Assembly: GCA_937872925.1 (NCBI GenBank)
Contig: CALMUT010000276.1
Coordinates: forward strand, 1-64,000
Source of the DNA: an uncultured Myxococcales bacterium
Lineage (GTDB): Bacteria > Myxococcota_A > Polyangia > Polyangiales > Polyangiaceae
Reading direction: 5' to 3'
Length of the DNA: 64,000 nucleotides
Part shown: piece by piece, positions 5,865 to 46,178 of the stretch
Position numbering within the stretch: position 1 is the first letter of the stretch
Layout of the letters: each line of letters starts with the position of its first letter
The notes under the pieces: model-generated
Databases searched by the model: none
What the model saw: the letters and a program-made list of their open reading frames with translations, nothing else
What the model was told of the DNA's origin: nothing
Made by a program: the position numbers and the translations under genes

Positions 5865-7628
5865 CTACGCTACTTTCGCTGCGGTCGGTTTGCTCTTCAA
5901 GGGCAGCAGACCGGACTGGGTCAACTTGTCGAAGAACGGAACGTATTTGTTCTCGATCTGCGCGTCGGCCGGCGGCGGTGCGATGCCGAGTTCTGCAACG
6001 CGCTCGGTGGACAGGGTGGGCTCGGGACCAGGGCGACGCAGCTCACCACGTGCGAGGGAAAGGGCGCCGGCCAGTCCGCCGCCGTTCTTGAAAACTGCGT
6101 GCCGTGCCCCCGGGTTCGCCACGGTCAGTGCCGCTTCGACGAACGCCAGCGCGGCCCGGCCGTAGCGCTTCAGAGTCGAGACGTGCGTCTTCGGCCGCAG
6201 CGGGCGCAGCGCCAGCTGAACGCCAACGCGCATGTAGCGTGCCAGTTCCTCGAAGGACTCGATGCGACGCAGCATGGACAGCGCGTAGCGGGGCCGCGCG
6301 TAGAACTTGAAGTAGGCGCGCCGAGCCTCGTCTTCCAACGCGGCTCGCGGCAGCTCGGTCCAGGGCGTGGGCAACAGATGCTCGCTGACCGCGCCCTTGA
6401 CGTACTCGCGCCAGTAGTCGATCCCGAGGGCGTCCACGACGTACTTTCGCTCCAGCTCCGTATGCGGCTTGATGATCGCGATCTGATATTGCGCGTAGGC
6501 GAGGGGTAGTGAGACTGAAAAGTCTACGGTTTTGCGCACCGTCTCTTTGGTGTCTCCGGGCGCGCCCAGGATGAAGAAACCTAGGGACATGATGCCGGCT
6601 GCCTGAACGCACTCTAGGGTCTTTCGCAGCTCCGCGGTCGTGGACTGCCCCTTCATCATGCCCTTCAGGACGTCGTCGTCCCCCGCCTCCACGCCGAAGT
6701 AGATGCGTCGGCAGCCACCTTCTGCCAGCGTCTGGATGAACTCCTCGTCGGGTCCGCGCTTCGTGCTGTGGTGTGAGAGCGAGTCGACCCGGGAGCGGCA
6801 CGACCAAATCACGTCTAGCTTGCGGCGTTTGATCTCCTTGGCGATGGCCATTGCGCGTTCGCGGTCGTGCAGCATCAGCGGATCGAACCAATCGATCTCG
6901 CGAATTCCTAGGGCGATGCACTCTTCGATTTCCGTCAGCACTTGCTCCGGCGTGCGCGCTTGGTAGCCACTCTGGCGCATGCAGCAGAAGGTGCACGGAT
7001 ACGGGCAGCCCACTTCACTCATGCCGATGGTGAAGTGCTTGCGCTGCGAAATGTGCGAGTAGTACAGGGAGTTGTCGAAGATGCTGCGGTCCGGCGTGGG
7101 GAATTCGGAGAACAGCGGCCGCTTACCTGGAAAGGTGATGTGCGTTTGCCCGCCAGAGCGGTAGGCCAGATCCGCAACGCGGTCGTAGCCACTGCCGCGT
7201 TCGAATGCAGGTAGGAACTCCGGCAAGAAGACGTGCCCCTCCCCGCCACACAAGAAGTCGAAGCAGCCGTGGCTCATCAGCTCTTCGACATAAACCTTGG
7301 CTTCGTAGCCACCGGTGACCGTTGGGATCCCGGTGCGTGAGCGGATGGCCTTGGCCCACGGCAACATGTCTTGGATGGTTTGCGCCGCATGCGACGAAAA
7401 CCCGATCAAGTCCGGCCCGTAGGCTTCGACCTCCTTGGTGATCGTATCCAGGGACTTCTTCGTAGCGGGTGCATCCCAGAGTCGGACGTCCCAACCCGCA
7501 GCTTGAGCGCCCCGTGCGACCCAGCCGAAACCAATGTGGGGGAAGAGTCCGAACTCGTCGTCGACGGTTGCCAGGTTCTCGTTGAACGCTTTGGCGAAGA
7601 ACGGAGGGTATACCAGGGCTAACTTCAC
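5865..7628 (-). CDS. B12-binding-domain radical SAM protein
   Basis: A 587-residue protein (locus B). I chose GTG 7628 because MKLALVYPPF begins the canonical first strand of a cobalamin-binding fold and AGGTG lies five bases upstream; the frame is open further but runs into the divergent promoter. Residues 1-145 look like the B12-binding Rossmann domain. The radical SAM motif is C208xxxC212xxC215 (GCPYPCTFC), followed by the usual barrel (GREIDWFDPLML, FGVEAGDD). A helical C-terminal region of about 200 residues follows. This class performs methylations or ring rearrangements on unactivated carbons. First gene of the minus-strand operon with locus A and the flippase-like gene. Confidence 0.9.
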   Translation of the reverse strand: MKLALVYPPFFAKAFNENLATVDDEFGLFPHIGFGWVARGAQAAGWDVRLWDAPATKKSLDTITKEVEAYGPDLIGFSSHAAQTIQDMLPWAKAIRSRTGIPTVTGGYEAKVYVEELMSHGCFDFLCGGEGHVFLPEFLPAFERGSGYDRVADLAYRSGGQTHITFPGKRPLFSEFPTPDRSIFDNSLYYSHISQRKHFTIGMSEVGCPYPCTFCCMRQSGYQARTPEQVLTEIEECIALGIREIDWFDPLMLHDRERAMAIAKEIKRRKLDVIWSCRSRVDSLSHHSTKRGPDEEFIQTLAEGGCRRIYFGVEAGDDDVLKGMMKGQSTTAELRKTLECVQAAGIMSLGFFILGAPGDTKETVRKTVDFSVSLPLAYAQYQIAIIKPHTELERKYVVDALGIDYWREYVKGAVSEHLLPTPWTELPRAALEDEARRAYFKFYARPRYALSMLRRIESFEELARYMRVGVQLALRPLRPKTHVSTLKRYGRAALAFVEAALTVANPGARHAVFKNGGGLAGALSLARGELRRPGPEPTLSTERVAELGIAPPPADAQIENKYVPFFDKLTQSGLLPLKSKPTAAKVA

Positions 7629-7680
7629 GAACGCACCTAGCGCAGTATAGTCTGTCTCGAGCGGACGGTGAGGGTTTGCG

Positions 7681-8928
7681 ATGAAGTTGCCAGCGAAGCT
7701 GCGTGAAATCCATCCGATGATCCTCCTCGATCTAGGAGTCACGGCGTTATTTCTGCTTGGGACGATCCTGGCGCACGATGCCTTCATAGCGGCACGACAA
7801 GTGCCCGAGGGCGCCATCGAACAGGGCTCGCATGTTGCATTGCTCGTCGCGCTCGGCGCGTGGGTGCAGGCGGTGCGCGTGCTGCGGGGCCGCGGTGGCG
7901 CGCGAGGGTTGGCCGCTGTGGTAACGGCCTACGTCCTGCTCTTGCTACTCGAAGAGATCGACTACGGGTTGATCTACGGTTTGGATATCGGGTTCAAAGA
8001 CGTCTTCGGCGTGACTTCGTTCCATCAGACGACCTGGAAGAACGAATACGTGTGGCAAGACAAGCTGTATTGGTTTGGCGCGCCCATGGCCGCCTTTTTT
8101 GCAGCGCCCTTTTTCGGTCGGTTAACCGAGCGATACCACCCAGCCGCGGCCACGCGTCGTGACAGCGTCGCCTTCGTCGTGGTGCTCGTGACCTTCCTGG
8201 TCGTCGACCAATTCCACCGGCACGCGATCAGCATTTACCAGGCTGTGATGTACGCGCTCATGGCCTGGGTCGGAGCACGCGCCGCTGGCTATCCGAAGGG
8301 GCGCATCGTCGAGGCAAAGGCGGGCCCCGTCGCTGCCGAAGTAGAGCCGCCTGCTGCAGCGCCTGGCGTTGCCGACAAGGGCGCTCCGCCGCCAGCGCGA
8401 ACGCGTCGGGACTCACCGCGCTGGACACCGGTACCGAGCGTGCGTTCGATGAGCCCGTTCGCCCCGCAGGCGCCGAAGCCCCTCGGCCGCGGGCCGGCAC
8501 GGGTGTCACGCAATACGTGGATCGGACTCACCAGCGCGTCGGCGTGCTTGCTGCTGTTTGCGGTCGCGTTTGTGGTCCTGGACCCCTTCGTTGCGCCAGC
8601 GGCGAGTTCGACGCCGAACCGGATCGCGACGACGGACGCCCCCGCTCCCGACCCATCCGCACCGTCGGTGAATCCTGTTGTCACGGCTGCGCCGGCGAGG
8701 GAGTCTGGTTTCCTAACCCTGGCATGCGAACCAGCATGTGGTCGCGTGGTGGTTGCCGGACGAAACCTCGGTCCGACGCCCATCGTGCGGCATCCTCTGG
8801 AGCCCGGTGACCATCAAGTGACCGCGACAAGCGGGACCCTTGAGCGAAGCTTCACAGTGGAGATCCGACCGAGGGCGACGACGTCGCGTCGCATCGACAT
8901 GCGCTCCTTGCCCGCATCCCCCTATTGA
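7681..8928 (+). CDS. Multi-pass membrane protein with C-terminal PEGA domain
   Basis: A 415-residue protein. The N-terminal 190 residues carry about five membrane helices. A Pro/Arg-rich linker (about 200-275) leads to a further helix at about 277-297. The C-terminal region, about 340-405 (GFLTLACEPACGRVVVAGRNLG then LEPGDHQVTATSG), has the beta-sandwich pattern of a PEGA domain, common in myxobacterial envelope proteins. It is divergent from the B12 radical SAM gene and 29 bases ahead of the small NLVAPD protein genes, so it may be co-transcribed with them. Function unknown. Confidence 0.75.
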   Translation: MKLPAKLREIHPMILLDLGVTALFLLGTILAHDAFIAARQVPEGAIEQGSHVALLVALGAWVQAVRVLRGRGGARGLAAVVTAYVLLLLLEEIDYGLIYGLDIGFKDVFGVTSFHQTTWKNEYVWQDKLYWFGAPMAAFFAAPFFGRLTERYHPAAATRRDSVAFVVVLVTFLVVDQFHRHAISIYQAVMYALMAWVGARAAGYPKGRIVEAKAGPVAAEVEPPAAAPGVADKGAPPPARTRRDSPRWTPVPSVRSMSPFAPQAPKPLGRGPARVSRNTWIGLTSASACLLLFAVAFVVLDPFVAPAASSTPNRIATTDAPAPDPSAPSVNPVVTAAPARESGFLTLACEPACGRVVVAGRNLGPTPIVRHPLEPGDHQVTATSGTLERSFTVEIRPRATTSRRIDMRSLPASPY

Positions 8929-31520: not shown

Positions 31521-32015
31521 ATGGTCAGATCGAACATCAGCCGAAGAAGTTTTGGGGCCGCGGCCGCAGTGAGCGCTGTGGCGGTGCCCGCGCTTTCCAG
31601 CAAAGGGGCCACCCCCGCCAGCCCGGCGCCGACGGCGAAGCCTGTGTCCGGACTGCTGTCCCCGCTGGCAGCCGGGGACGCCCTCGGCCATTGGCGCTTG
31701 GTAGAGGTGGCGCCGCTCACCGACGGCGCCGTGAGCATCGTGCTGCGTGACGCGGCTGGCACGCATTTTCAACTCGACGTCTGCCGTCGCGATCCCGAGC
31801 CCGGCGCGCCGCGGGGCCCGGGCCAAACCGAACGCTATGAGGTGTTCTTGGCGAACTCCGGTGACGGCACGCTGCGGACCCGCGAGAGCCACGGCCTTGC
31901 CGCAATGGCGATTGCAGATGTGATCCGCGGCAACGAAGCCAATCTGGACGCGTCGGGTTTCGCGACCTTGCGTGCCCGGGAGCGCCGAGGTCTCGCGCGT
32001 AGTCGTTTGCCGTAG
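31521..32015 (+). CDS. Tat-exported protein heading the HxsD-type radical SAM locus
   Basis: A 164-residue protein from ATG 31521. Its start, MVRSNISRRSFGAAAAVSAVAVPALS, has a twin-arginine signal (SRRSFG), so it is exported folded. The mature part is a small alpha/beta domain including HWRLVEVAPLTDGAVSIVLRD, FQLDVCRRD and SHGLAAMAIADVIRGNE, with a basic C-terminus. I do not recognise the family. It is 51 bases upstream of a minimal radical SAM gene and is the first gene of a six-gene plus-strand run, so it may be the substrate or an exported partner of that system; this is inference. Confidence 0.68.
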   Translation: MVRSNISRRSFGAAAAVSAVAVPALSSKGATPASPAPTAKPVSGLLSPLAAGDALGHWRLVEVAPLTDGAVSIVLRDAAGTHFQLDVCRRDPEPGAPRGPGQTERYEVFLANSGDGTLRTRESHGLAAMAIADVIRGNEANLDASGFATLRARERRGLARSRLP

Positions 32016-32066
32016 CCGCGGCTCGCTCCCGCTTAGTGGGGAGTTCTGGGAGGGGAAGGATATCGT

Positions 32067-32819
32067 TTGCGCAGGATCGAGGTCGGATTTCGATGTAACA
32101 ACGCGTGCCTATTCTGTGCCCCCGGGACGCTGCGCACGTCTTTGCCAGAATCCCCAATCGAGGAGATCAATCGGCAGATCCAAGAGGTCGTCACCGGTGA
32201 CCGCGTGGCATTTGTGGGGGGCGAACCGACGCTCTTCGACGAACTGCCGGGCTGGGCCAGAACGGTACGCGAGCGTGGCGCGTGGTCGATCTTGGTGCAG
32301 ACGAATGCGCGGCGGCTAGCCGTCAAGGGTTATGCCCACTCGCTCATCGCGTCCGGAGTGGATGTGTTGGACGTCTCTTTGCATGGTGCCAACGAAGCGA
32401 TGCACGACTACCACACGAACGTCGAGGGTAGTTTTCGCCAAACGGTCGCAGGGTTGCGCCGCGCGCGCGCTGCCGGTCTCACTTTCGGCGTCACTGCCGT
32501 CGTGACGCGATCCAACTACCGGCATCTCGCGGAGCTCGTACACGTGGTGCACACCCTCGGGGCGCGCGCATTGCACTTGCCCGTCGTCAATCCCCTGGGC
32601 GCTGCGGCGGAAAACAAGGACCGCCTCGTGGTTTCACCAGAGCTGCTCGAACCCCACATGGCTCGCGCAATCGCGCGGGCGCAGGCCCTGGGGTTGGTGG
32701 TGGTGCGCGGAGAAAACCTCGGAAAGGCCGGCTCGCCCCAACTATTCGCGGGTACCGGTCGCGCCCAAGACCCGGCGGAAGCGCCTCGGCTGGGCCCGCG
32801 GTTACGCGTCACCCCGTGA
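32067..32819 (+). CDS. Minimal radical SAM protein lacking an auxiliary-cluster domain
   Basis: A 250-residue protein (locus D) starting at TTG 32067 (MRRIEVGFRC). The motif is C10xxxC14xxC17 (CNNACLFC), with FVGGEPTLF as the SAM-binding segment and VDVLDVSLHG in the barrel. Unlike its relatives in this window it stops after the core barrel: the C-terminal CxxC..CxG cluster is absent. That cluster is present in the methyltransferase two genes downstream. It is followed by HxsD-like genes, fitting a peptide-modifying radical SAM unit. Confidence 0.87.
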   Translation: MRRIEVGFRCNNACLFCAPGTLRTSLPESPIEEINRQIQEVVTGDRVAFVGGEPTLFDELPGWARTVRERGAWSILVQTNARRLAVKGYAHSLIASGVDVLDVSLHGANEAMHDYHTNVEGSFRQTVAGLRRARAAGLTFGVTAVVTRSNYRHLAELVHVVHTLGARALHLPVVNPLGAAAENKDRLVVSPELLEPHMARAIARAQALGLVVVRGENLGKAGSPQLFAGTGRAQDPAEAPRLGPRLRVTP

Positions 32820-32860
32820 CAGGCTCGCAAGGGGCGCGGGGCTCTGTTAATCAACATGGC

Positions 32861-33352
32861 ATGGCTGTCGAGCACACATCTAACGCGGAAGGCATGTTGA
32901 TCGAGCTGGACGAGAGCCTGTATCCAAAGGACGCGATTTATGGCGCTGCCTACGTGTTCATCGACCGTTGCTACGTGAAGCTCGACCGTCCCAGCCCGGG
33001 GCGTCTGAGCGTGCGTCTGAAGCCCAAGCAGGGAGTCGAGGCTGACGCTGACGCCTACGCGGGCGAATTCGAGAATGAGCTGCTCTCTCAGACCTGGCGT
33101 CGAATGATTGTGGACGAAAACCGCCAGTTGATCGAACAGGTCACGACGGCCGCTCTCAGCGGTGCCGCAGGGCCACCGGGGCTAGACGACTTGCTCGCCA
33201 TGGACCTCGACGAAGACACCGCCTTCGAGGACCCGCTGGGCATCGCCATGAGTTGGGAAGAAAAGTACAAGAAGAAGGACGTCCCCGAGGCGTCGGCGGA
33301 CGCAGCTGGCAAGAGCGACTCCGAGCCCGATCCGGACGCAGACAAGAAATGA
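32861..33352 (+). CDS. HxsD-like protein with acidic C-terminal extension
   Basis: A 163-residue protein; ATG 32861 is used, with ATG 32894 as an alternative. Residues 12-100 match the plan of HxsD of the His-Xaa-Ser radical SAM system: LDESLYPKDAIYGAAYVFIDRCYVKLD, then EFENELLSQTWRRMIVDEN and a helical end. Residues 105-163 are an Asp/Glu/Lys-rich tail not expected in HxsD. In that system HxsD is a small partner of two radical SAM maturases; its exact role is not settled. It overlaps the next gene by ATGA. Assignment is by pattern memory and is only moderately sure. Confidence 0.68.
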   Translation: MAVEHTSNAEGMLIELDESLYPKDAIYGAAYVFIDRCYVKLDRPSPGRLSVRLKPKQGVEADADAYAGEFENELLSQTWRRMIVDENRQLIEQVTTAALSGAAGPPGLDDLLAMDLDEDTAFEDPLGIAMSWEEKYKKKDVPEASADAAGKSDSEPDPDADKK

Positions 33353-33564
33353 CTCGGCTGACTTTCAAGAAGGAACTGTATGTCGCCGCGGCTCTAGAAC
33401 AGGCGGTCACGGCCTTCGAAGCCCACGCCAAGCTGTCGCGGAGCGAGACGCCGGTCGAGTGGCACGTCGACGTGCAGGCCGACAGTGACGAAGCCCTGAT
33501 CGCCGACGAACTTGCCAACTACGTCCTCGGCGTGACGATTGAAGAGCGAGGAGCGGCGAGCTGA
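33349..33564 (+). CDS. Short second HxsD-like protein
   Basis: A 71-residue protein starting in the ATGA overlap with the HxsD-like gene. It has the same sketch in shorter form: LTFKKELYVAAALEQAVTAF, a strand (EWHVDVQA), then IADELANYVLGVTIEE, which parallels the EF.NELL motif of the first protein. It is probably a divergent duplicate forming a heteromer with its neighbour. No catalytic residues are visible. Confidence 0.62.
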   Translation: MTRLTFKKELYVAAALEQAVTAFEAHAKLSRSETPVEWHVDVQADSDEALIADELANYVLGVTIEERGAAS

Positions 33565-33604
33565 GCTTGACTCAAAGGCCTGGGTCTTTGTCGTTGGGGC
33601 AGGT

Positions 33605-34513
33605 GTGAGCACCGGCCCCCGGTCTAACTCCTTCCATTTCGTGCCGGTACGGGATGTCGACCGCGCGCGGGGAGCGCCTTGTCCACTCGTCGACAATGCA
33701 ACCTTGCGCCAGGTGCCGAGCCGGGCCCGGACGCTCTGGTTGCGACTTCCGGGGCGCATGCGCCTATTCGAGACTTCCTCGTCCGACTTCTCGGATGCAG
33801 AGCTGGGCGAAATCAAGCATGGCGTCGGCCAAATCTACTTGGACGTCTCTAGCAAGAGTCGATTCGACGACTTCGCAAGTGACTTGAAGCGACTGAAGCT
33901 GGCCACCGAGTGCGAGATCTGTGCCCTCGCTTCCGAATGCGCAGGAGCGTACGCCAAGGGACCGAGCGCTGATTTCGCCCAAGAGGAAGCCGCGCTCGGC
34001 GAGATCCTGAGGGGATTACGCGGAGCGGTCCTGGACTACGGCTGCGGCCACGCGCCCTACGCGGAGCTACTCGCCGCTGCGGCCGTAGACGGCGCTGTCC
34101 AGTACTACGGCGTCGAACCTGACGCGAGCGCCCGGGAGCGCCTCTTGCAACGCCGCCCCTGGGCGTTCCTGTCACCGGGCGTGCCCGAAGTGCCGCAGAC
34201 CTTCGACCATGTGCTTTTGCTGCGCAGCATCAACCATTTGCCGGACCCCGCTGGAACCATCGCGGAACTGCTTCCGCGTCTGAAGCCGAGCGGGACGCTG
34301 CTGATCGTTGACAACGTTGCTTTCGGGGTCGTGCGTTCTGTGGAGCAAGCGCGCCGGGCAGAGCAGTCTTCGGCTGCCTTCGAGCATTTTGAGAACGCCA
34401 GCGCAAAGGACATTCACGCACGGCTTTCGGAAATGCCACTACGCCTGCTAGCGCGCCAAGACGTGACTCGATCCACGGCGAACCAATGGCTGCTGCAATA
34501 CGCCAAGTCGTAG
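33605..34513 (+). CDS. Methyltransferase with N-terminal Cys-cluster domain
   Basis: Translated from GTG 33605 this is 302 residues; an in-frame TTG at 33539 would overlap the preceding gene. Residues 1-125 hold C26, C103xxC106 and C112 (CEICALASECAGAYA), the same spacing as the C-terminal auxiliary-cluster signature of nearby radical SAM proteins. Residues 135-302 are a class I methyltransferase: VLDYGCGHAPY (motif I), YYGVEPD (motif II), FDHVLLLRSINHLPD. It may supply the missing cluster domain to locus D and add a methyl group. Both are inferences; the fold assignment of the second half is firm. Confidence 0.78.
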   Translation: MSTGPRSNSFHFVPVRDVDRARGAPCPLVDNATLRQVPSRARTLWLRLPGRMRLFETSSSDFSDAELGEIKHGVGQIYLDVSSKSRFDDFASDLKRLKLATECEICALASECAGAYAKGPSADFAQEEAALGEILRGLRGAVLDYGCGHAPYAELLAAAAVDGAVQYYGVEPDASARERLLQRRPWAFLSPGVPEVPQTFDHVLLLRSINHLPDPAGTIAELLPRLKPSGTLLIVDNVAFGVVRSVEQARRAEQSSAAFEHFENASAKDIHARLSEMPLRLLARQDVTRSTANQWLLQYAKS

Positions 34514-34588
34514 CGCCAGCCCGGAGCTTGCCGTGGCCCTGGGCTGGCCGTACCGGGCCGTAGCCTGGGCTGCTATGGTCGGGACCAC

Positions 34589-36253
34589 ATGGCTCACGAC
34601 GTGTTGGTCATCGGCGGCGGGCCGGCTGGGTGCACTGCGGCCGCGCTGCTGGCCAAGGCGGGGCACGATGTGCTGCTTGTCGAAGCCGCTGCGCAGCCAC
34701 GCATCCACCTCGGAGAGAGCCTCTTGCCCGGCATCGTGCCGATCCTCGAGGAGATGGGGGCACTGTCCGAGGTCGAATCAGCCGGCTTCTCGAAGAAGAC
34801 AGGCACCACCCACTGGCAGTGGGGGCGCACGCCGGCTTGGGATCTATGGTTTTCCGACACCGATCAATTCGACCACGCCTGGTTGGTGGAGCGAGCGCGG
34901 TTCGACGAGATATTGTTTCGTTGCGCGGAGCGCGCGGGCGCAGCGGTGCGGGAGCATACGCGAGCCTGTGCGCCGATACTCGATGGGCAGCGGGTCGTGG
35001 GCGCGCGCATCCAAGTGCGCGGCGCCGACGCAGAGCAGGACGTGCACGCGCGCTTCGTGATCGACGCAAGCGGCCAGAACGCGCTGCTATCGAAGGGCCG
35101 CAAGCTGCGCGAGCACATCGACGGACTCAGGCATCAAGCTTCCTGGGCGCACTACGCCGGAGCGGGACGCCTTTCGCCGCCTCGAGAAAACCAAGCGCTC
35201 TTCGTTGCTGAGAACGGATATTGGCTTTGGCTGTTCCCCCTAGCGAATGACAGGGTCTCCGTCGGCATGGTGCGGCTCGACGGGACGGATCACCCGTCGG
35301 CGCGGGACGCCGCCTTTGAAGCAGGTGTCGCCCAAAGCGAAGCGTTCATGCAAGTGCTCGGTCGCGCCGCGCGCCGCGTCACTCCCATACGCCACGAGCG
35401 CGACTTCACCTATCGCATGCGCGAAGTTGCCGGTGCGGGCTTCCTTGCGGTGGGTGACGCTTCCGGATTCATTGACCCGGTGCTTTCTACCGGTGTCTTT
35501 CTTGCGATGCATGCGGCGCGGCATGCCGCAAGTCTGGTCAGCGAGGTGTTGCGGGCAAGGGTAGCGGAGCAGCTGGCTCTTGAGCGCTACACAAAGCACC
35601 ACCGTCAGCTATTCGGTGACTTGCTGCGTATGGTGCGCTTCTACTATCAGCAGAACCTGGGGCGCGACGACTACTTCTGGGAATCTAAGCGCATTCTGCT
35701 ACGCGAAGACACCCGCCTGAAGCCGCAGAAGGCCTTTTTGATCCTCACCAGTGGCCTGGTGCAGAATCTCGCACTGACGGACGCAAGCGAGCGCGCCTTG
35801 GCTCGGCGCAGTCGTTCCATCTCCGGGGGCAGGAACCTGGTCGCCAGCACTCATGGCCCCGGGCATGGCGACGTCGTGGTGGGTGGATCGAAAGGGTACG
35901 CTGACAGCGATGGCGGCTTAGGTTTTGTGTGCGTGCATCTGCGCTACGAAGACGGCAGTGAACGCCCTGCGCAACTCTACTTGCTCGTGGAACCCACCGA
36001 CCCGAGCGCCCCGAGCCTGTTTCGTACCGCGCACTTTGACGTCAACTGCCTCGCGCCCCGCTACAACAACGATCCCATCGCACATCCGCCTCTTGAGCCC
36101 CATTTGCGTGGCGTACACGAGCGGCTGTGCGCGCTGGATACGCACGAGACGCCCAGCGTGGGCGCTCTGTGGAGCGCCCGCCAAACACAGTTCGTTCAGA
36201 TCTTCGCTGACCTGCCTGAGCAGTTTGAACTCGTGCGTGTCTTTGGGGAATGA
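34589..36253 (+). CDS. FAD-dependent halogenase-like protein with C-terminal extension
   Basis: A 554-residue flavoprotein of the tryptophan-halogenase-like family. It has GGGPAG (9-14), HLGESLLP (40-47), a Lys in GFSKKTGTTHWQWG (66-79) matching the conserved halogenase/reductase segment, the WxWxxP motif WLWLFP (212-217) and GDASGFIDPVLSTGVF (289-304). Residues beyond about 420 are an extra domain of unknown type. Family members are halogenases, but some are plain monooxygenases or reductases. It closes the Tat/radical SAM/HxsD-like run, suggesting chlorination, bromination or hydroxylation of the same product. Confidence 0.8.
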   Translation: MAHDVLVIGGGPAGCTAAALLAKAGHDVLLVEAAAQPRIHLGESLLPGIVPILEEMGALSEVESAGFSKKTGTTHWQWGRTPAWDLWFSDTDQFDHAWLVERARFDEILFRCAERAGAAVREHTRACAPILDGQRVVGARIQVRGADAEQDVHARFVIDASGQNALLSKGRKLREHIDGLRHQASWAHYAGAGRLSPPRENQALFVAENGYWLWLFPLANDRVSVGMVRLDGTDHPSARDAAFEAGVAQSEAFMQVLGRAARRVTPIRHERDFTYRMREVAGAGFLAVGDASGFIDPVLSTGVFLAMHAARHAASLVSEVLRARVAEQLALERYTKHHRQLFGDLLRMVRFYYQQNLGRDDYFWESKRILLREDTRLKPQKAFLILTSGLVQNLALTDASERALARRSRSISGGRNLVASTHGPGHGDVVVGGSKGYADSDGGLGFVCVHLRYEDGSERPAQLYLLVEPTDPSAPSLFRTAHFDVNCLAPRYNNDPIAHPPLEPHLRGVHERLCALDTHETPSVGALWSARQTQFVQIFADLPEQFELVRVFGE

Positions 36254-36305: not shown

Positions 36306-38585
36306 TCACTGCATCCGACCCGCGTATTCCGGCGGCGCGGCAAAGCTCTGCTGCACGTCGAAGCCTACCCAGCGCACCCGTGCCTCGCCCGCGTCGTCCA
36401 GACTGGGCAGGGCCAGCGTACGTTCGATGACGTAGTCTTGGGCGCGGCGTAGATCAGCGGCGGACATGCTGCTCGTGTGTGTGACGCGGTAGTATCGCTG
36501 CGCATCGACGCCTAATCCGTGCACCGCACGATGCAAGTGCAACTGCGTGCCGGGAAGGACCAACAGCCGATTCACGACAACGCGCGCGGCATCGAAGGAA
36601 AGCACCCGGTCAAAGCTGTTCTGAAATGACTCAAGGGTTTCCCCTGGAAGCCCCAGGATCATCGACAGCTCTAGCGGGCCCGCGCCGGAGAAGGTCTTCA
36701 GGGCACGCTCAATATGCTGCAGGCGCGTGCCTCGCTTCATGGGTGCAAAGGTGTCTGGGGAGAGCGATTGCACGCCGAAATGCAGCGCACCCACAGGCAC
36801 GCCACGCAGCGCTTCGCGTTGGCTGTCGCGTGCCAGGGACGGATAGAGTTGAAAGCCGTAGCGCAGCTTCCCATTCGGATCGCCGCGGCGGATGGCCTCG
36901 CAGGTGCGGGCAAATGCGGCGTCCGTAACGTTGGCGGTGCTGGCGCCTGCGTCAATCCATTGGGACTCGGGCCACGCCACCACGGCGGCAATCTCCGATG
37001 CGAGGCGATCGCTGCCTCGCAACTGCATCCTGCCCTCGCGACTCTGTTTGGCGTCGCTACAGAACGCGCAGCTGAAGATACACCCTCGCGCCATTTCGAT
37101 CGTGGGGCGTGCGACGCGATACACGGTTCCTTCCAAGTACGGCGAGGGAAAGTCGTCCAAGCTGGGAACGAGGGCAGGGGGGCCGTGCTCTACCTGGCCG
37201 TCGTGCACCGTGAAAAGTCCCGGCATCCCCCGGGGGATCCGCCGGGGCACGTTCTGCCTGAGTAGCGTGCGAGTCAGATCGACCAGGGTGTGCTCTCCGG
37301 AGCCGTGCGCTATGGCGTCCACGGCGTCCCACCAAGAAAACCAGCTCGCGTCCTGATTCAAAAACGCAAAGGACACCCCTCCCCACACGATGGGGGCGGC
37401 TAGCTTTCGCGCTTTCAGCAGTCGGCTGACGGCGCCGCATTGCGCGAGGTTCCAGCTGTATGCAGAGAGGCCGACCAGGTCCGGTTGCGCCGCTTGGATG
37501 GCGTCGGCCGCGGCTTTGTCTGACAGGCCCACCAGGAACAGAATGTCGACGTCGACCCGTTCGGCGAGCTCGGGTTGAGAGAGCACTGCTGCGCGGAGGT
37601 ACTCGCACGCGCCGGGACCATAACCCCAGGTTGCTTCGGAGAGGTTGATCAGCACCAGGCGAAAGCGCCCAGGGCGCTTCGCGACAGCATTCTTGTGAAA
37701 TGCTGGGTGCGCGTCCGTGCGGGGCGGTGTCGCCTGGGCAACGGAAGCCGCCAGGGGCACCAGCGCGTCGTCTCCGTGGCGATCCAGGTACCATGCCGGC
37801 AGACCGCCGCATTGCGCCGCCGCGCCGCAGGTCTGACAAGGCGCGGAGAGTTTCATGCCCGGAGCGCGCCGTTGCACGACCGCTTTTTCGCGTGCTGCTT
37901 CCGGCAGCGCACACAGCGGGATCCCACTTTCCGGTGCGAACCGGAGCTCTGCGCCGATTGCTTGGGTCTGCTGCACAGCCGCCAGCAGGCGGCCGCGCAG
38001 TTGCGCCAGGTCTTCGCACAGAAAGTCTTGCGCTTCCGATCCGGGGGGTACAGCGCGCGGCAAGGATAGCTCCACGGTGTTCACCCCGCCTGCGTGTGTG
38101 TTTGCAGATCTGAGCAGCGCGGCGGCGTCCTGCTTCTCAGCGGAGAGAAAGACGATGCGCAGAGAAATGTCCAAGCCCGCGGCCCGCGCTTCGGCCAGAC
38201 CTTGCATCAATCGCCCATGGGCTCCGCTGCGTCCGCACACACGGTCATGAACGGTTGCGTCGTCGCTGTAGATAGTCACGACGACCTCGTCGAGGCCGGC
38301 CCGCGTCAGCGCAGCTGCCGCACCCGTTGCGGCTAGGCGCACGCCGTTAGTTTCGACGCAGACGCGGCTGTAGCCGGCCGCCTTGGCGCGGGCCACCCAC
38401 GTGGTTAGATCTGCGCGGCGCATGGGGTCGCAGCCAATCACCCGAAGCGTCGTGGCGCTGTCCCCGGGTTTCGGCAGCTGCGGCAGCGGTTGCGTGGCCG
38501 TGGCGCTGAGGGGGCCCGAGCAGAACCAGCACGAAAGATCGCACTGTGCCGGCAACCGAATGCTGTCGATTCTCTCGTCGCTCAC
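36306..38585 (-). CDS. Double radical SAM protein (SPASM-like domain, then B12-type domain)
   Basis: A 759-residue protein (locus E) with the domain order reversed relative to locus C. Domain 1 has C15xxxC19xxC22 (CDLSCWFC), then GCDPMRR (51-57) where GGEPT is expected. It ends with C225, C250xxC253 and C259 in the CQTCGAAAQCGG auxiliary-cluster motif. Residues 305-490 resemble a B12-binding domain (RLVLINLSEATW, VGLSAYSWNL, HGSGE). Domain 2 has C502xxxC506xxC509 (GCIFSCAFC), then LHFGVQSLS and LGLPGETLES. It is convergent with the halogenase-like gene and divergent from locus F. Confidence 0.9.
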   Translation of the reverse strand: MSDERIDSIRLPAQCDLSCWFCSGPLSATATQPLPQLPKPGDSATTLRVIGCDPMRRADLTTWVARAKAAGYSRVCVETNGVRLAATGAAAALTRAGLDEVVVTIYSDDATVHDRVCGRSGAHGRLMQGLAEARAAGLDISLRIVFLSAEKQDAAALLRSANTHAGGVNTVELSLPRAVPPGSEAQDFLCEDLAQLRGRLLAAVQQTQAIGAELRFAPESGIPLCALPEAAREKAVVQRRAPGMKLSAPCQTCGAAAQCGGLPAWYLDRHGDDALVPLAASVAQATPPRTDAHPAFHKNAVAKRPGRFRLVLINLSEATWGYGPGACEYLRAAVLSQPELAERVDVDILFLVGLSDKAAADAIQAAQPDLVGLSAYSWNLAQCGAVSRLLKARKLAAPIVWGGVSFAFLNQDASWFSWWDAVDAIAHGSGEHTLVDLTRTLLRQNVPRRIPRGMPGLFTVHDGQVEHGPPALVPSLDDFPSPYLEGTVYRVARPTIEMARGCIFSCAFCSDAKQSREGRMQLRGSDRLASEIAAVVAWPESQWIDAGASTANVTDAAFARTCEAIRRGDPNGKLRYGFQLYPSLARDSQREALRGVPVGALHFGVQSLSPDTFAPMKRGTRLQHIERALKTFSGAGPLELSMILGLPGETLESFQNSFDRVLSFDAARVVVNRLLVLPGTQLHLHRAVHGLGVDAQRYYRVTHTSSMSAADLRRAQDYVIERTLALPSLDDAGEARVRWVGFDVQQSFAAPPEYAGRMQ

Positions 38586-41333: not shown

Positions 41334-43616
41334 ATGCGCATCGCCTTTGTCATCTTTCATGGCGAGGAGCGTTACGGGTTCTTTGACGATACGTTTGTCT
41401 CGTTACTCTGTGCGGACGCGCGCCGCAGCGGACACCCTGCCGAAGTTGTGCATGTCTTCTTCGACGGGGGTGACGCGGGCAGGGACGCCAGCGTGCGTGA
41501 ATTGTTTCGAAACTGGCTCGCGGAGCAGGGCACGGAGCTGCTGGTTTGCGAACGCGCCGTCGACGCCGCTTCCCTCGCAGAGTTCGCGGCCGCGCCTGGC
41601 AAAACCCTGCTTCAAGTGACTCGTGGCGACTCTCTGGACCCGGCGCCCGGGGCGCAGTTCATTCTCGGTGCGTTGCCTGGACTAACCAGCCGCGGTCGTG
41701 TCGCGCGCACCCCGTTGACTGCAGACCTACGCCACGGTTTCCGAGCATTCCTGCGCTCGAGCGCCGGCGCCGGCTCTTTCGCAGACGTGCCCGGATTGTG
41801 CCGGATCCGCGGCGATTCGCTGATCCCCTGCGCGGAGGTGGTGACCACGGACGAAAGCTGGCCGTTCGATCCAGTCGTCGACCACCAGGTGCTCGCGCTG
41901 CGCGCGCTCGAGCCTGCGACGCACAAGACCGTCTTCGGCAACGTGGGGTGTCCGTATTCCCGAGACCCGTACCTGCTGCCGCACTACAGGGGTGCCGAGG
42001 CGCCCGATCACGTCGGTCTCAGCCGACTGGGCTGCGCTTTCTGCCCCATGGGCGGCGACTACCAAGTGCGGGGCGACGCCGACGTGGTCCGCGGCATTGT
42101 CCAGCAGGCTCGGTACTTCGTGGACGCATTGCCACAGCTTCAGTCCTTGCTCATCTCGGACCAGGCCCCGCTACGCTATCTGTCAGAGCTGATGCGCTCC
42201 GCGGCAGTCGCGGGCATGCGTCCGCTGCGATGGATGTTTCCGTGCCGGGCAGAAGCCTTGCTCCGGGAGACTGAGGCCCTGACCGAAGCGCTGACCGCGG
42301 CGCGGGCTTCGGGACAAATGCTCGAGTGCTATCTCGTCGGATTTGAGTCGTTTTGTCAACGCGAGCTCGACCGCTACAACAAGGGAGTGCAAGTGGCTGA
42401 GCTGGTGCAGAGCGTGGAGCGCATGCGCAGCCTCAAAGCCGAGTTTCCCGAGACCTTTGAATACGCTCGGGCTCGAGGACACAGCCTGGTGCTATTCAAC
42501 CCCTGGACGTCGCCCGAGGACGTACTCGAGAGCGCGCACGTGATGCGCGCCCACGGCCTGTGTGAGCTTTTCGACGAACCCTTTCGCAATCGGCTGCGCC
42601 TTTATGCGGATTTGCCCATCACCTACGCTGCAAAACGCGACGGTGCCCTCAGCGTCGGAGAGCAGCTGGGTTCCGGGGCCGGGCGCCGCAAGGGATACAG
42701 CCTCGAGACTCCCTGGCGGTTCTTGGATGCGCGGACCCCGCGCCTGACCGAAAGTGCAGAGCTGCTTCAGGAACAACTCGGTAGTGGATCTGCCTTATCC
42801 CAGCTGTTCGCAGCCGCGCAGTACGCGAAGTGCCCCAGCGCCTCTGGGCGCACCGAGTTGTCCAAGGAACTCGCCGCATTGAAGGCTGCGGTTGACGCGC
42901 TGCTGCACGATGACCGGCGTCCGCCCCAGCTGGGCCGTGCCAGCACGATGCCCGCTGCACCAGTTCTGTTTGCGGGCGACTGCAACAACGGCTGCGCAGC
43001 TTGTCCGAATCGCGACCACTACCTTTCCGACGCCGCAGAGGCCGTCTTCGATCGCGTGCGCTCCGCACGCCGTTCTGGTGAAGCGGTGCTCTTCGCCGGG
43101 CGGGAGCCGACGCTGCATCTGTCGTTGCTGGACCTGCTCGAGGCCGCGCGGGGGCCAGATGGGCGGGCGGTGGGCATGGTCAGCAATGCCCGGCGCTTCT
43201 GTTACGAAGCGTTCACCTCGGCGTGTGTCCGCGCGGGGCTTTCCGGCGTCAGTGTTAAACTCTTCGCCTCTAGCGAGTCTGATTCCGACGCGATCAGTCG
43301 CTGCCCTGGCGCACAGCAACAAGCCTTGGCTGGACTCAGTGCGCTCGCTCGGCATGGGGTCGCCCTTGAGATCCGCGCGCCCATGAACCAACGGAACATC
43401 GGCAGGTTTGAGCGCTACGCTGACCTGGGCGCTCGGGTTGGCGCTTCGCTCAGAGTTGAATTTGCACTGGACGCGCTCGGACTGGAAAACCTCGGGCGCG
43501 CAAGGGACGCGTTGGGCGCGCTTGTCCAAGCGTGTGTGGCACGAGGGATCGCGTTGGAAGCCTCGCCGCTTTCCCTTGGAACGCGCGACTTCCGCTTCCT
43601 GCCTCGGTCGATCTAG
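41334..43616 (+). CDS. Double radical SAM protein with an atypical first cluster motif
   Basis: A 760-residue protein (locus G) from ATG 41334. The N-terminal 200 residues resemble a B12-binding region (MRIAFVIFHG). The first radical SAM domain has an unusual motif: C206 (VGCPYS), 27 intervening residues, then C234xxC237 (GCAFC). The barrel continues with ECYLVGFESF and LVLFNPWTSPED. Domain 2 has C550xxxC554xxC557 (CNNGCAACPNRD), FAGREPTLHLSL and GVSVKLFAS. No C-terminal auxiliary cluster is seen. Last gene of the F-G operon. The spacing oddity should be confirmed, but the sequence is in frame throughout. Confidence 0.85.
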   Translation: MRIAFVIFHGEERYGFFDDTFVSLLCADARRSGHPAEVVHVFFDGGDAGRDASVRELFRNWLAEQGTELLVCERAVDAASLAEFAAAPGKTLLQVTRGDSLDPAPGAQFILGALPGLTSRGRVARTPLTADLRHGFRAFLRSSAGAGSFADVPGLCRIRGDSLIPCAEVVTTDESWPFDPVVDHQVLALRALEPATHKTVFGNVGCPYSRDPYLLPHYRGAEAPDHVGLSRLGCAFCPMGGDYQVRGDADVVRGIVQQARYFVDALPQLQSLLISDQAPLRYLSELMRSAAVAGMRPLRWMFPCRAEALLRETEALTEALTAARASGQMLECYLVGFESFCQRELDRYNKGVQVAELVQSVERMRSLKAEFPETFEYARARGHSLVLFNPWTSPEDVLESAHVMRAHGLCELFDEPFRNRLRLYADLPITYAAKRDGALSVGEQLGSGAGRRKGYSLETPWRFLDARTPRLTESAELLQEQLGSGSALSQLFAAAQYAKCPSASGRTELSKELAALKAAVDALLHDDRRPPQLGRASTMPAAPVLFAGDCNNGCAACPNRDHYLSDAAEAVFDRVRSARRSGEAVLFAGREPTLHLSLLDLLEAARGPDGRAVGMVSNARRFCYEAFTSACVRAGLSGVSVKLFASSESDSDAISRCPGAQQQALAGLSALARHGVALEIRAPMNQRNIGRFERYADLGARVGASLRVEFALDALGLENLGRARDALGALVQACVARGIALEASPLSLGTRDFRFLPRSI

Positions 43617-43702
43617 ACTTGAGAAATCGCGAATTTACCCGACCTACCCCTCACGACTCGACCACCAGAAAGGCGCGGGGTGCGCTAGAGTTGCCGCGTC
43701 GC

Positions 43703-44752
43703 ATGCGTCGGTTCCTCACCTCTGCCACCATCGTGCTTGCACTCGCTGGCTGCACCACGATCCTGGGCATCGACGGGGAGTTCGACGACCAAGCGTCGGG
43801 CGGCGCCTCCGGGTCGGGCGGCGCGGATGCTGGCACCGGCGCTGCCGGCACCGGTGGCGTCGCAGGAGCGGAAAATTGCCTGAACGGCGTTGATGACGAC
43901 AACAACGCCCAAGTCGACTGCATGGATTCTGCGTGCCAAGACAGGTTCGTCTGCGAGCCCGCTGCGCCTGCCGGCTTCATGGGGCCTGCCGTGCTCTGGA
44001 CCGGAACCGGGAACCAGACAGCCCCGCCATGCAGCGACCCAATGCTGGACCAGCTCCCGCTTTTCGAAGGGCTGACGGCCGCAGGAGCGGACTGTGGATC
44101 CGTCGGGTGCCAGTGCACTGAAGCGAGCTCACCCACGTGTTTGGGCCTGGTCAAATACCAAAGTGGCACCTGCACGACCGCGGGGAGCTACACGCCGCTC
44201 AGCGCCGGTTGCACAAATGTCACCGTCACCGTGCCCTCCTTCGCAAATCACGTGACGGGTATTTCCGGCAGTTTGACCTGCACCCCTGCCGCAACAGGCA
44301 GTCCGACGCTGCCGCCGCAGAGCGTCGCGGCGCGCTACGCTCTGTGCACCGCGGGAAGTCCAGGAGCCGGATGCAGTGGGGACCTGTGTGTCCCCAACAC
44401 CGACGCCAACTACGCCAAGCGGTGTGTGTTTCAAAAGGGGAACGTGGCGTGTCCGGGCGCGTACCCGAACGTGCTCAACCTATTTTCGAGCGTCAACGAC
44501 ACCCGGGGCTGTAGCGCGTGCACTTGCGACGACAGCGCTCCCTGCACGGTCAGCGTGGAAGAGTATCCGACCAGCGGCTGTGCCGGCAGTGGCAATGCGG
44601 TGCCCAAAGGTGGCAGCTGCCTACAGATCTCGGGTCCCCCCGCGCAGCGCTCCGTGCAGGTGACCGCGACTGCGCCCACTTGCATTCCTGGGGGAGGCGC
44701 CCCGATGGGTGCGATCAGCGCCGCGGGGCCAGTCACCGTTTGCTGCCAGTAG
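43703..44752 (+). CDS. Cys-rich lipoprotein with Gly-rich linker
   Basis: A 349-residue lipoprotein from ATG 43703; the signal MRRFLTSATIVLALAGC has Cys17 as the lipid site. A Gly/Ala/Ser linker follows, then NCLNGVDDDNNAQVDCMDSAC, a pattern common in myxobacterial surface proteins. The remaining 270 residues are rich in Cys, likely paired in disulfides. Function unknown. An in-frame upstream extension overlaps locus G and lacks a signal. Confidence 0.8.
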   Translation: MRRFLTSATIVLALAGCTTILGIDGEFDDQASGGASGSGGADAGTGAAGTGGVAGAENCLNGVDDDNNAQVDCMDSACQDRFVCEPAAPAGFMGPAVLWTGTGNQTAPPCSDPMLDQLPLFEGLTAAGADCGSVGCQCTEASSPTCLGLVKYQSGTCTTAGSYTPLSAGCTNVTVTVPSFANHVTGISGSLTCTPAATGSPTLPPQSVAARYALCTAGSPGAGCSGDLCVPNTDANYAKRCVFQKGNVACPGAYPNVLNLFSSVNDTRGCSACTCDDSAPCTVSVEEYPTSGCAGSGNAVPKGGSCLQISGPPAQRSVQVTATAPTCIPGGGAPMGAISAAGPVTVCCQ

Positions 44753-45401: not shown

Positions 45402-46178
45402 TCAGCCTCGATGATCCGCCACGAAGCTGTAGGCCGAAGCGTCGAACGCTGCGCCGGCAAGTTCTGGGGCATCTGCGTGGGCCGCGGCATCCGCGTCGGG
45501 GACCTGCCAGCGCACGGCGTGTTCGATGTGCTGATTGAAAACGCGCAGCGAGAGCAGCGCGCCGCCGGTTGAGCTCATGACGTGCACCCGTCTGGCGAGC
45601 TCCTGCCAGCGGGTCGCGTAGCCCGGATAGGCCGTATCCAGCGCGGCCAGCAAATCCGCGCCCAAGCTTGCAGAGGCGGCGCAGCGCAGTGAACACGGCG
45701 CGTGCGAAATCAGCGATAGCGGGCCGACGAGCCACAAAGTCTCTGGCGGCGCAGCGGCGGTGTCGCCGTCAAGCAGCGCCCCCAAGAGCGCAACATCGTC
45801 TTGCACGCTCAAGGAACAGAATCGCTCGATGCAGCAGGCGGGGTAGCCTAGCAGGCGGCCCAGCGCGACGACTGCGCTGGGGTCGCGGCGTCTGGCTTCA
45901 AGTTCCAGCACTTCGCCTCGGTGCAGCGCGTCGCTGTCGCGTGCCGCCAGAATCACGGTCTGGCCATCCGGAGCTGGAGCCGGAATGCGCCGAAGCGACA
46001 GCGCCCTAGCTGCGAGCCAGCGTTCCGCCACATCGGCGTCGCGCCCGTTTAGACACTCGCGCTTGATCAAGCTGCGCTGGCCGGAAAGTAGTCCGAACAG
46101 CTCGGGATCCGCAGGGGAAACGCCGTCTGTCGGGGGCGCGCCTGAGCGCAATCGAGCCGGCCATTTGGGAAATGCCAC
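45402..46178 (-). CDS. DUF483 family protein
   Basis: A 258-residue protein with LGRLLGYPACCIERF and HAPCSLRCAAS, the paired Cys motifs of DUF483 proteins, found in archaea and some bacteria, often beside radical SAM genes. It may bind a metal or cluster. It is divergent from locus H with 44 bases between, so both probably share a regulatory region. Function unknown. Confidence 0.78.
   Translation of the reverse strand: MAFPKWPARLRSGAPPTDGVSPADPELFGLLSGQRSLIKRECLNGRDADVAERWLAARALSLRRIPAPAPDGQTVILAARDSDALHRGEVLELEARRRDPSAVVALGRLLGYPACCIERFCSLSVQDDVALLGALLDGDTAAAPPETLWLVGPLSLISHAPCSLRCAASASLGADLLAALDTAYPGYATRWQELARRVHVMSSTGGALLSLRVFNQHIEHAVRWQVPDADAAAHADAPELAGAAFDASAYSFVADHRG

Follow-up and report, generated by a model that had tools for sequence, protein, structure and literature searches.

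The gene cluster at positions 31521 to 36253 of the window (the whole 64-kb stretch of contig C276 that was analysed) can be described, judging by its sequence, as a dispersed variant of a known His-Xaa-Ser (Hxs) type, in which a methyltransferase arm recurs and the HxsD protein bears a tail peculiar to its branch. We consider it probable that the cluster constitutes an HxsD/HxsD-like/HxsC-like/methyltransferase module of an HxsA4-type system, the genes for its HxsB protein and (His-Gly-Ser)n precursor lying at other sites in the genome; because the window contig has neither, we infer this partnership from co-occurrence. What purpose His-Xaa-Ser systems serve, and by what chemistry, appears to be uncharacterised, open-access full texts mentioning them only in passing, and the coupling of a methyltransferase to Hxs genes looks undocumented in that literature.

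Gene content and kinship of the locus

Six open reading frames, all on the plus strand, occupy the region. P1 (31521 to 32015) encodes a 164-aa protein with a Tat signal (SRRSF) and a conserved alpha/beta domain, and P2 (32067 to 32819), which begins with a TTG start codon, a minimal HxsC-like radical SAM enzyme of 250 aa. These are followed by P3 (32861 to 33352), which specifies a 163-aa HxsD with a conserved C-terminal tail (GLDDLLAMD...AFEDPLGIAMSWEEKYKKK), and by P4 (33349 to 33564), which specifies a 71-aa HxsD-like protein and overlaps P3 by 4 nt (ATGA). P5 (33605 to 34513) encodes a four-cysteine domain (CPL...CxxCxxxxxC) joined to a class I methyltransferase, and P6 (34589 to 36253) a flavin halogenase/monooxygenase-like protein of 554 aa. 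The open frame of P5 runs from 33539 (324 aa), and the GTG codon at 33605 (302 aa) is the more likely start, since homologues begin near this position.

The preliminary description of this DNA had recognised six plus-strand genes in a row, among them a Tat protein, a minimal radical SAM core and two HxsD-like proteins, and each of these elements was recovered. The profile comparison that it had proposed for the 163- and 71-residue proteins placed both above the curated cut-offs, P3 scoring 58.6 bits against HxsD (TIGR03976; cut-off, 50) and P4 59.9 bits against the HxsD-like family (NF038315; cut-off, 41). Its statement that HxsD is known only as a small partner in peptide modification was too narrow, as NCBIfam already holds HxsD-like (NF038315), HxsA4 (NF038313) and HxsC4 (NF038332) families. 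In the predicted structure of P3, the domain was modelled with confidence and the tail with low confidence. The best fold relatives in the PDB reached a VIA Z of 7.4 and were unrelated chains, the modelled resemblance being apparently that of a common ferredoxin-like arrangement only; RpoL/Rpb11 ranked high as candidate fold relatives, yet fell within the noise of unrelated chains and were rejected.

A search of species genomes with a profile built from the HxsD alignment returned 159 relatives, of which 80 loci were kept and, with the window, gave a set of 81. Nearly all of the 80 are titled as Myxococcota, and the others have vague or mislabelled MAG titles. An HxsD-like gene directly follows hxsD in 79 of the 81 loci, and because this pair recurs so regularly, the locus is not a chance assembly. 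HxsB comes next in 62 loci, the usual order in relatives being hxsD, hxsD-like, hxsB and hxsA4, and the downstream radical SAM protein of the relatives is a true HxsB (545.8 bits against TIGR03978; cut-off, 370). Near HxsB, approximately 33 loci contain (HGS)n precursor ORFs, which share the leader LPSFxRxxxGMLS and a His-Gly-Ser run of up to ~50 units ending in Trp; two such repeat ORFs, when tested against HxsA4 (NF038313; cut-off, 55), scored 111.8 and 103 bits. Since its relatives carry genuine HxsB and HxsA4 precursors, the window locus is kin to complete HxsA4-type systems, and its HxsD and HxsD-like proteins belong to a branch of the His-Xaa-Ser system found in Myxococcota, as does the methyltransferase in many relatives.

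Several further features of the related loci were observed. Locus L100 harbors two adjoining HGS-repeat ORFs (6649 to 8040), one with ~50 His-Gly-Ser units. L131, titled as a Klebsiella pneumoniae MAG, carries a Myxococcota-type locus, and this label is probably wrong because its HxsB falls among the myxobacterial ones. In the Polyangiaceae (L072 to L082), the gene upstream of HxsD is often a lipoprotein-like one whose product has MopE-like D/N-rich repeats (21 loci, family F4), and an ORF similar to this family is located at positions 43532 to 44752 of the window. Canonical HxsA/HxsA2 systems (plasmid loci L164 and L165; myxobacterial loci L192 to L198) likewise possess an HxsD domain, HxsB and a His-Xaa-Ser repeat precursor, but differ in that their HxsDs are tailless and their precursors apparently secreted, and none was seen to include an HxsD-like protein. 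Some genomes of the order (e.g., G149 and G109) contain both the HxsA4-type system and a second, canonical one of this sort (L192 to L198), the precursors of which are secreted and of HRSHSS type.

Unlinked HxsB and HxsA4

Contig C276 yielded matches of at most 43.9 bits to HxsB (TIGR03978) and no match in a profile search for HxsA4. A precursor within the window was also considered and rejected, there being no HGS repeat and no HxsA4-leader ORF above noise. The remainder of the assembly (377 contigs, 95% complete, for a 9.39-Mb genome) encodes HxsB on C79 (551.8 bits), C222 (541.2 bits) and C154 (508.7 bits), and HxsA4 on C47 (87.7 bits, cut by the contig end), with a weaker HxsA4 on C154. 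The locus thus resembles the HxsA4 system defined by NF038313, NF038315, NF038332, TIGR03978 and TIGR03976 in having HxsD and HxsD-like proteins above their cut-offs, with HxsB and an above-cut-off HxsA4 in the same genome. It differs from compact HxsA4 loci in that hxsB and hxsA4 are unlinked, in that P5 occupies the hxsB position, as it does in 9 of the 81 loci (the window and eight related ones), and in that no radical SAM enzyme attains the HxsC or HxsC4 cut-off.

Across the 184 genomes of the order, an HxsD-like protein was present in 61, all of which encode HxsB and 57 of which encode HxsA4, a co-occurrence which overstates the independent evidence because these genomes are related. For each of the 15 HxsD-like loci without a nearby HxsB, 4 of which lie at or near contig ends in draft assemblies, the genome encodes HxsB elsewhere. 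In G093 and G084, the three parts are distributed over C12, C18 and C19 and over C4, C2 and C3, respectively, each genome having a single HxsB and a single HxsA4 above the cut-off. Genomes of this kind, where an HxsD pair, an HxsB and an above-cut-off HxsA4 each occur once and at three separate sites, offer a clean minimal set from which to reconstitute the system.

The relocated HxsBs fall into a single group that lies within those of the compact type (SH-aLRT of 94 in a quick tree, the careful search being unfinished). The neighborhood of the HxsB gene on C222 matches those of the HxsB genes in G078, G102 and G093, and the HxsA4 gene on C47 adjoins genes for PPDK and GlyS, as it does in G078. 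From this common group and the matching neighborhoods across genomes, it follows that the dispersed arrangement is old and common to several genera. Unlinked HxsA4 genes lie beside genes for pyruvate phosphate dikinase and/or the glycyl-tRNA synthetase beta subunit in L176 (C47 of the present genome, G000), L184, L182 and L191.

Radical SAM enzyme, methyltransferase and HxsD tail

P2 matches the radical SAM family PF04055 with 73.4 bits, and its only cysteines are those of the CxxxCxxC motif. It scored 87.1 bits against HxsC (cut-off, 267.9) and 97.1 bits against HxsC4 (NF038332; cut-off, 500), thus reaching neither threshold, and no radical SAM protein of its own genome attained the HxsC (TIGR03977) cut-off, the best scoring 98.4 bits. 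The possibility that P2 is simply the lost front half of P5 was discarded, as L100 and L130 encode P2-like proteins in addition to the full fusion. The twin-arginine pair of P1 is kept in nearly all of its homologues, which are present in 31 of the 81 loci, mostly with a P2-like radical SAM gene immediately downstream. P1 has no family at threshold in Pfam or NCBIfam, and its modelled fold (pLDDT, 84.6) found no match in the PDB below an E value of 0.2; our guess is that it acts as an exported partner.

Of the 24 HxsC-like radical SAM matches in the genome (E ≤ 1e-6), 9 fall within the window, making a hotspot of these 64 kb out of 9.39 Mb. One product (36306 to 38585, minus strand) has an HxsC-like radical SAM domain, with CxxxCxxC kept, fused to a KedN5-like B12-binding radical SAM domain, and another (41334 to 43616, plus strand; 760 aa) combines a C-terminal HxsC-like radical SAM domain with an N-terminal region that contains GCAFCP and has no Pfam match. 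A YPACC motif is present in the DUF483-like product of the gene at 45402 to 46178 (minus strand), and relatives of this protein are encoded next to HxsC-like radical SAM genes in other loci.

In P5, the CxxCxxxxxC motif, which every homologue long enough to include it retains, together with a further upstream Cys in the full-length ones, precedes a class I methyltransferase domain (PF13489); a radical SAM core is absent. The methyltransferase domain occurs in 26 of the 81 loci, in 12 of which it follows an HxsC-like radical SAM domain within one fused protein, and the association of a Cys-cluster methyltransferase with Hxs genes, as proposed in the preliminary description, is thereby substantiated. 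Five relatives (L072, L073, L075, L079 and L082) encode a radical SAM protein of ~550 aa directly after P5; the best match to it in the present genome, at 37%, is located on C154, and no close copy was found. One rather doubtful reading is that of a split Hxs enzyme, in which, at window-type loci, the radical SAM, auxiliary-cluster and methyltransferase jobs of one fused protein would be divided over a radical SAM core lacking auxiliary cysteines and P5, joined by the HxsD/HxsD-like pair and the tail; if this were true, the repeat peptide would be both radical-modified and methylated.

HxsDs of the Myxococcota branch extend ~40 conserved residues beyond the family model, ending in DPLGIAMSWEEKY and followed by a variable charged end. 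This tail is nearly invariant and predicted to be disordered, and it was present in all 48 main-clade HxsDs, which had been gathered via the HxsD-like protein and not via the tail itself. Mean column entropy across these 48 proteins rose from 0.2 bits in the motif to 1.44 in the domain and 2.63 in the end. None of nine HxsDs from other Hxs systems (seven of the nine myxobacterial) possesses the tail, these proteins stopping directly after the domain, and HxsDs of the C154 clade have a shorter, different version. The simplest reading is that the tail serves as a docking segment.

Within the proposed module, HxsD and the HxsD-like protein would together form an adapter, bringing the (HGS)n precursor with its leader to HxsB and to HxsC-like radical SAM enzymes, with the disordered HxsD tail docking a partner. 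P5 might methylate the modified peptide or supply an auxiliary Fe-S domain, while P1, made together with P2, may be an exported partner or receiver of the product. Experimental handles on such a system are offered by the precursors, with up to ~50 repeats and a common leader, by the paired HxsD adapter, with its nearly invariant and mutable tail, and by the fusion of methyltransferase to radical SAM enzyme in some genomes.

Alternative readings and the flavoprotein P6

An alternative, which we consider unlikely, is that the locus no longer serves the His-Xaa-Ser pathway, HxsD having been reused together with its paralogue as an adapter for P2 and P5 on another substrate, such as P1, and the unlinked HxsB and HxsA4 serving other loci. 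The contig devoid of HxsB and HxsA4, the occupation of the HxsB position by P5 and the travel of P1 with a P2-like radical SAM lacking extra cysteines as a pair, usually 30 to 80 nt apart, are all in keeping with such a departure. The genome also contains on C154 a second, compact HxsD-HxsB-HGS set, which could use the same HxsB genes, a point which weighs against the module reading. However, genomes such as G084, G085, G086, G093 and G102 each encode one HxsD set, one HxsB and one HxsA4 above the cut-off, all unlinked, and because these sets are single, that HxsB has no other HxsD paired with an HxsD-like protein open to it than the lone one. Moreover, P1 and P2 are found as well at loci where the HxsB/HxsA4 set is complete, and P1 contains no invariant Cys, His or Trp, on which ground it was also rejected as a classical precursor. 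A role within the HxsA4-type system is preferred.

It is very unlikely that the HxsD tail, instead of being a docking segment, serves as the core peptide that is modified, with its invariant Trp, Pro or acidic residues as targets: its conservation far above that of the domain, its predicted lack of structure and the different version in the C154 clade would suit this role, but the tail is also present in loci with explicit (HGS)n precursors, and it is succeeded by the variable charged end without a leader boundary of the cleavage type. That all six genes form one pathway, in which P6 halogenates or hydroxylates the radical-SAM-modified product, is highly improbable. P6 lies on the same strand, 75 nt after P5, and matches flavin halogenases with a W-x-W-x-x-P motif and, more weakly, QhpG; on the other hand, at E ≤ 1e-60 no P6 was found in a same-genus genome or in the window-type genomes searched, 7 of 108 genomes of the family having one, and a P6-like gene is near HxsD in 2 of the 81 loci. 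The conserved cluster ends ahead of P6, which is probably a neighbor and not part of the Hxs system. Conservation in other myxobacteria, for which the preliminary description had suggested a search covering all six genes together, was borne out, though not for P6; the halogenation that it had envisaged within the system was not upheld, whereas the last gene does appear halogenase-like in sequence (122.7 bits against PF04820, Trp_halogenase).

The halogenase-like family includes hydroxylases such as QhpG, a flavoenzyme which modifies peptidyl tryptophan. The PDB chains nearest to P6 are the CndH/CmlS-type halogenases 8zop, 3e1t and 3i3l (CmlS), and the WLWLFP segment of P6 aligns with WLWYIP of 8zop. 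P6 aligns with these enzymes over ~390 residues and departs from them by ~155 further C-terminal residues; the protein is not conserved with the Hxs genes.
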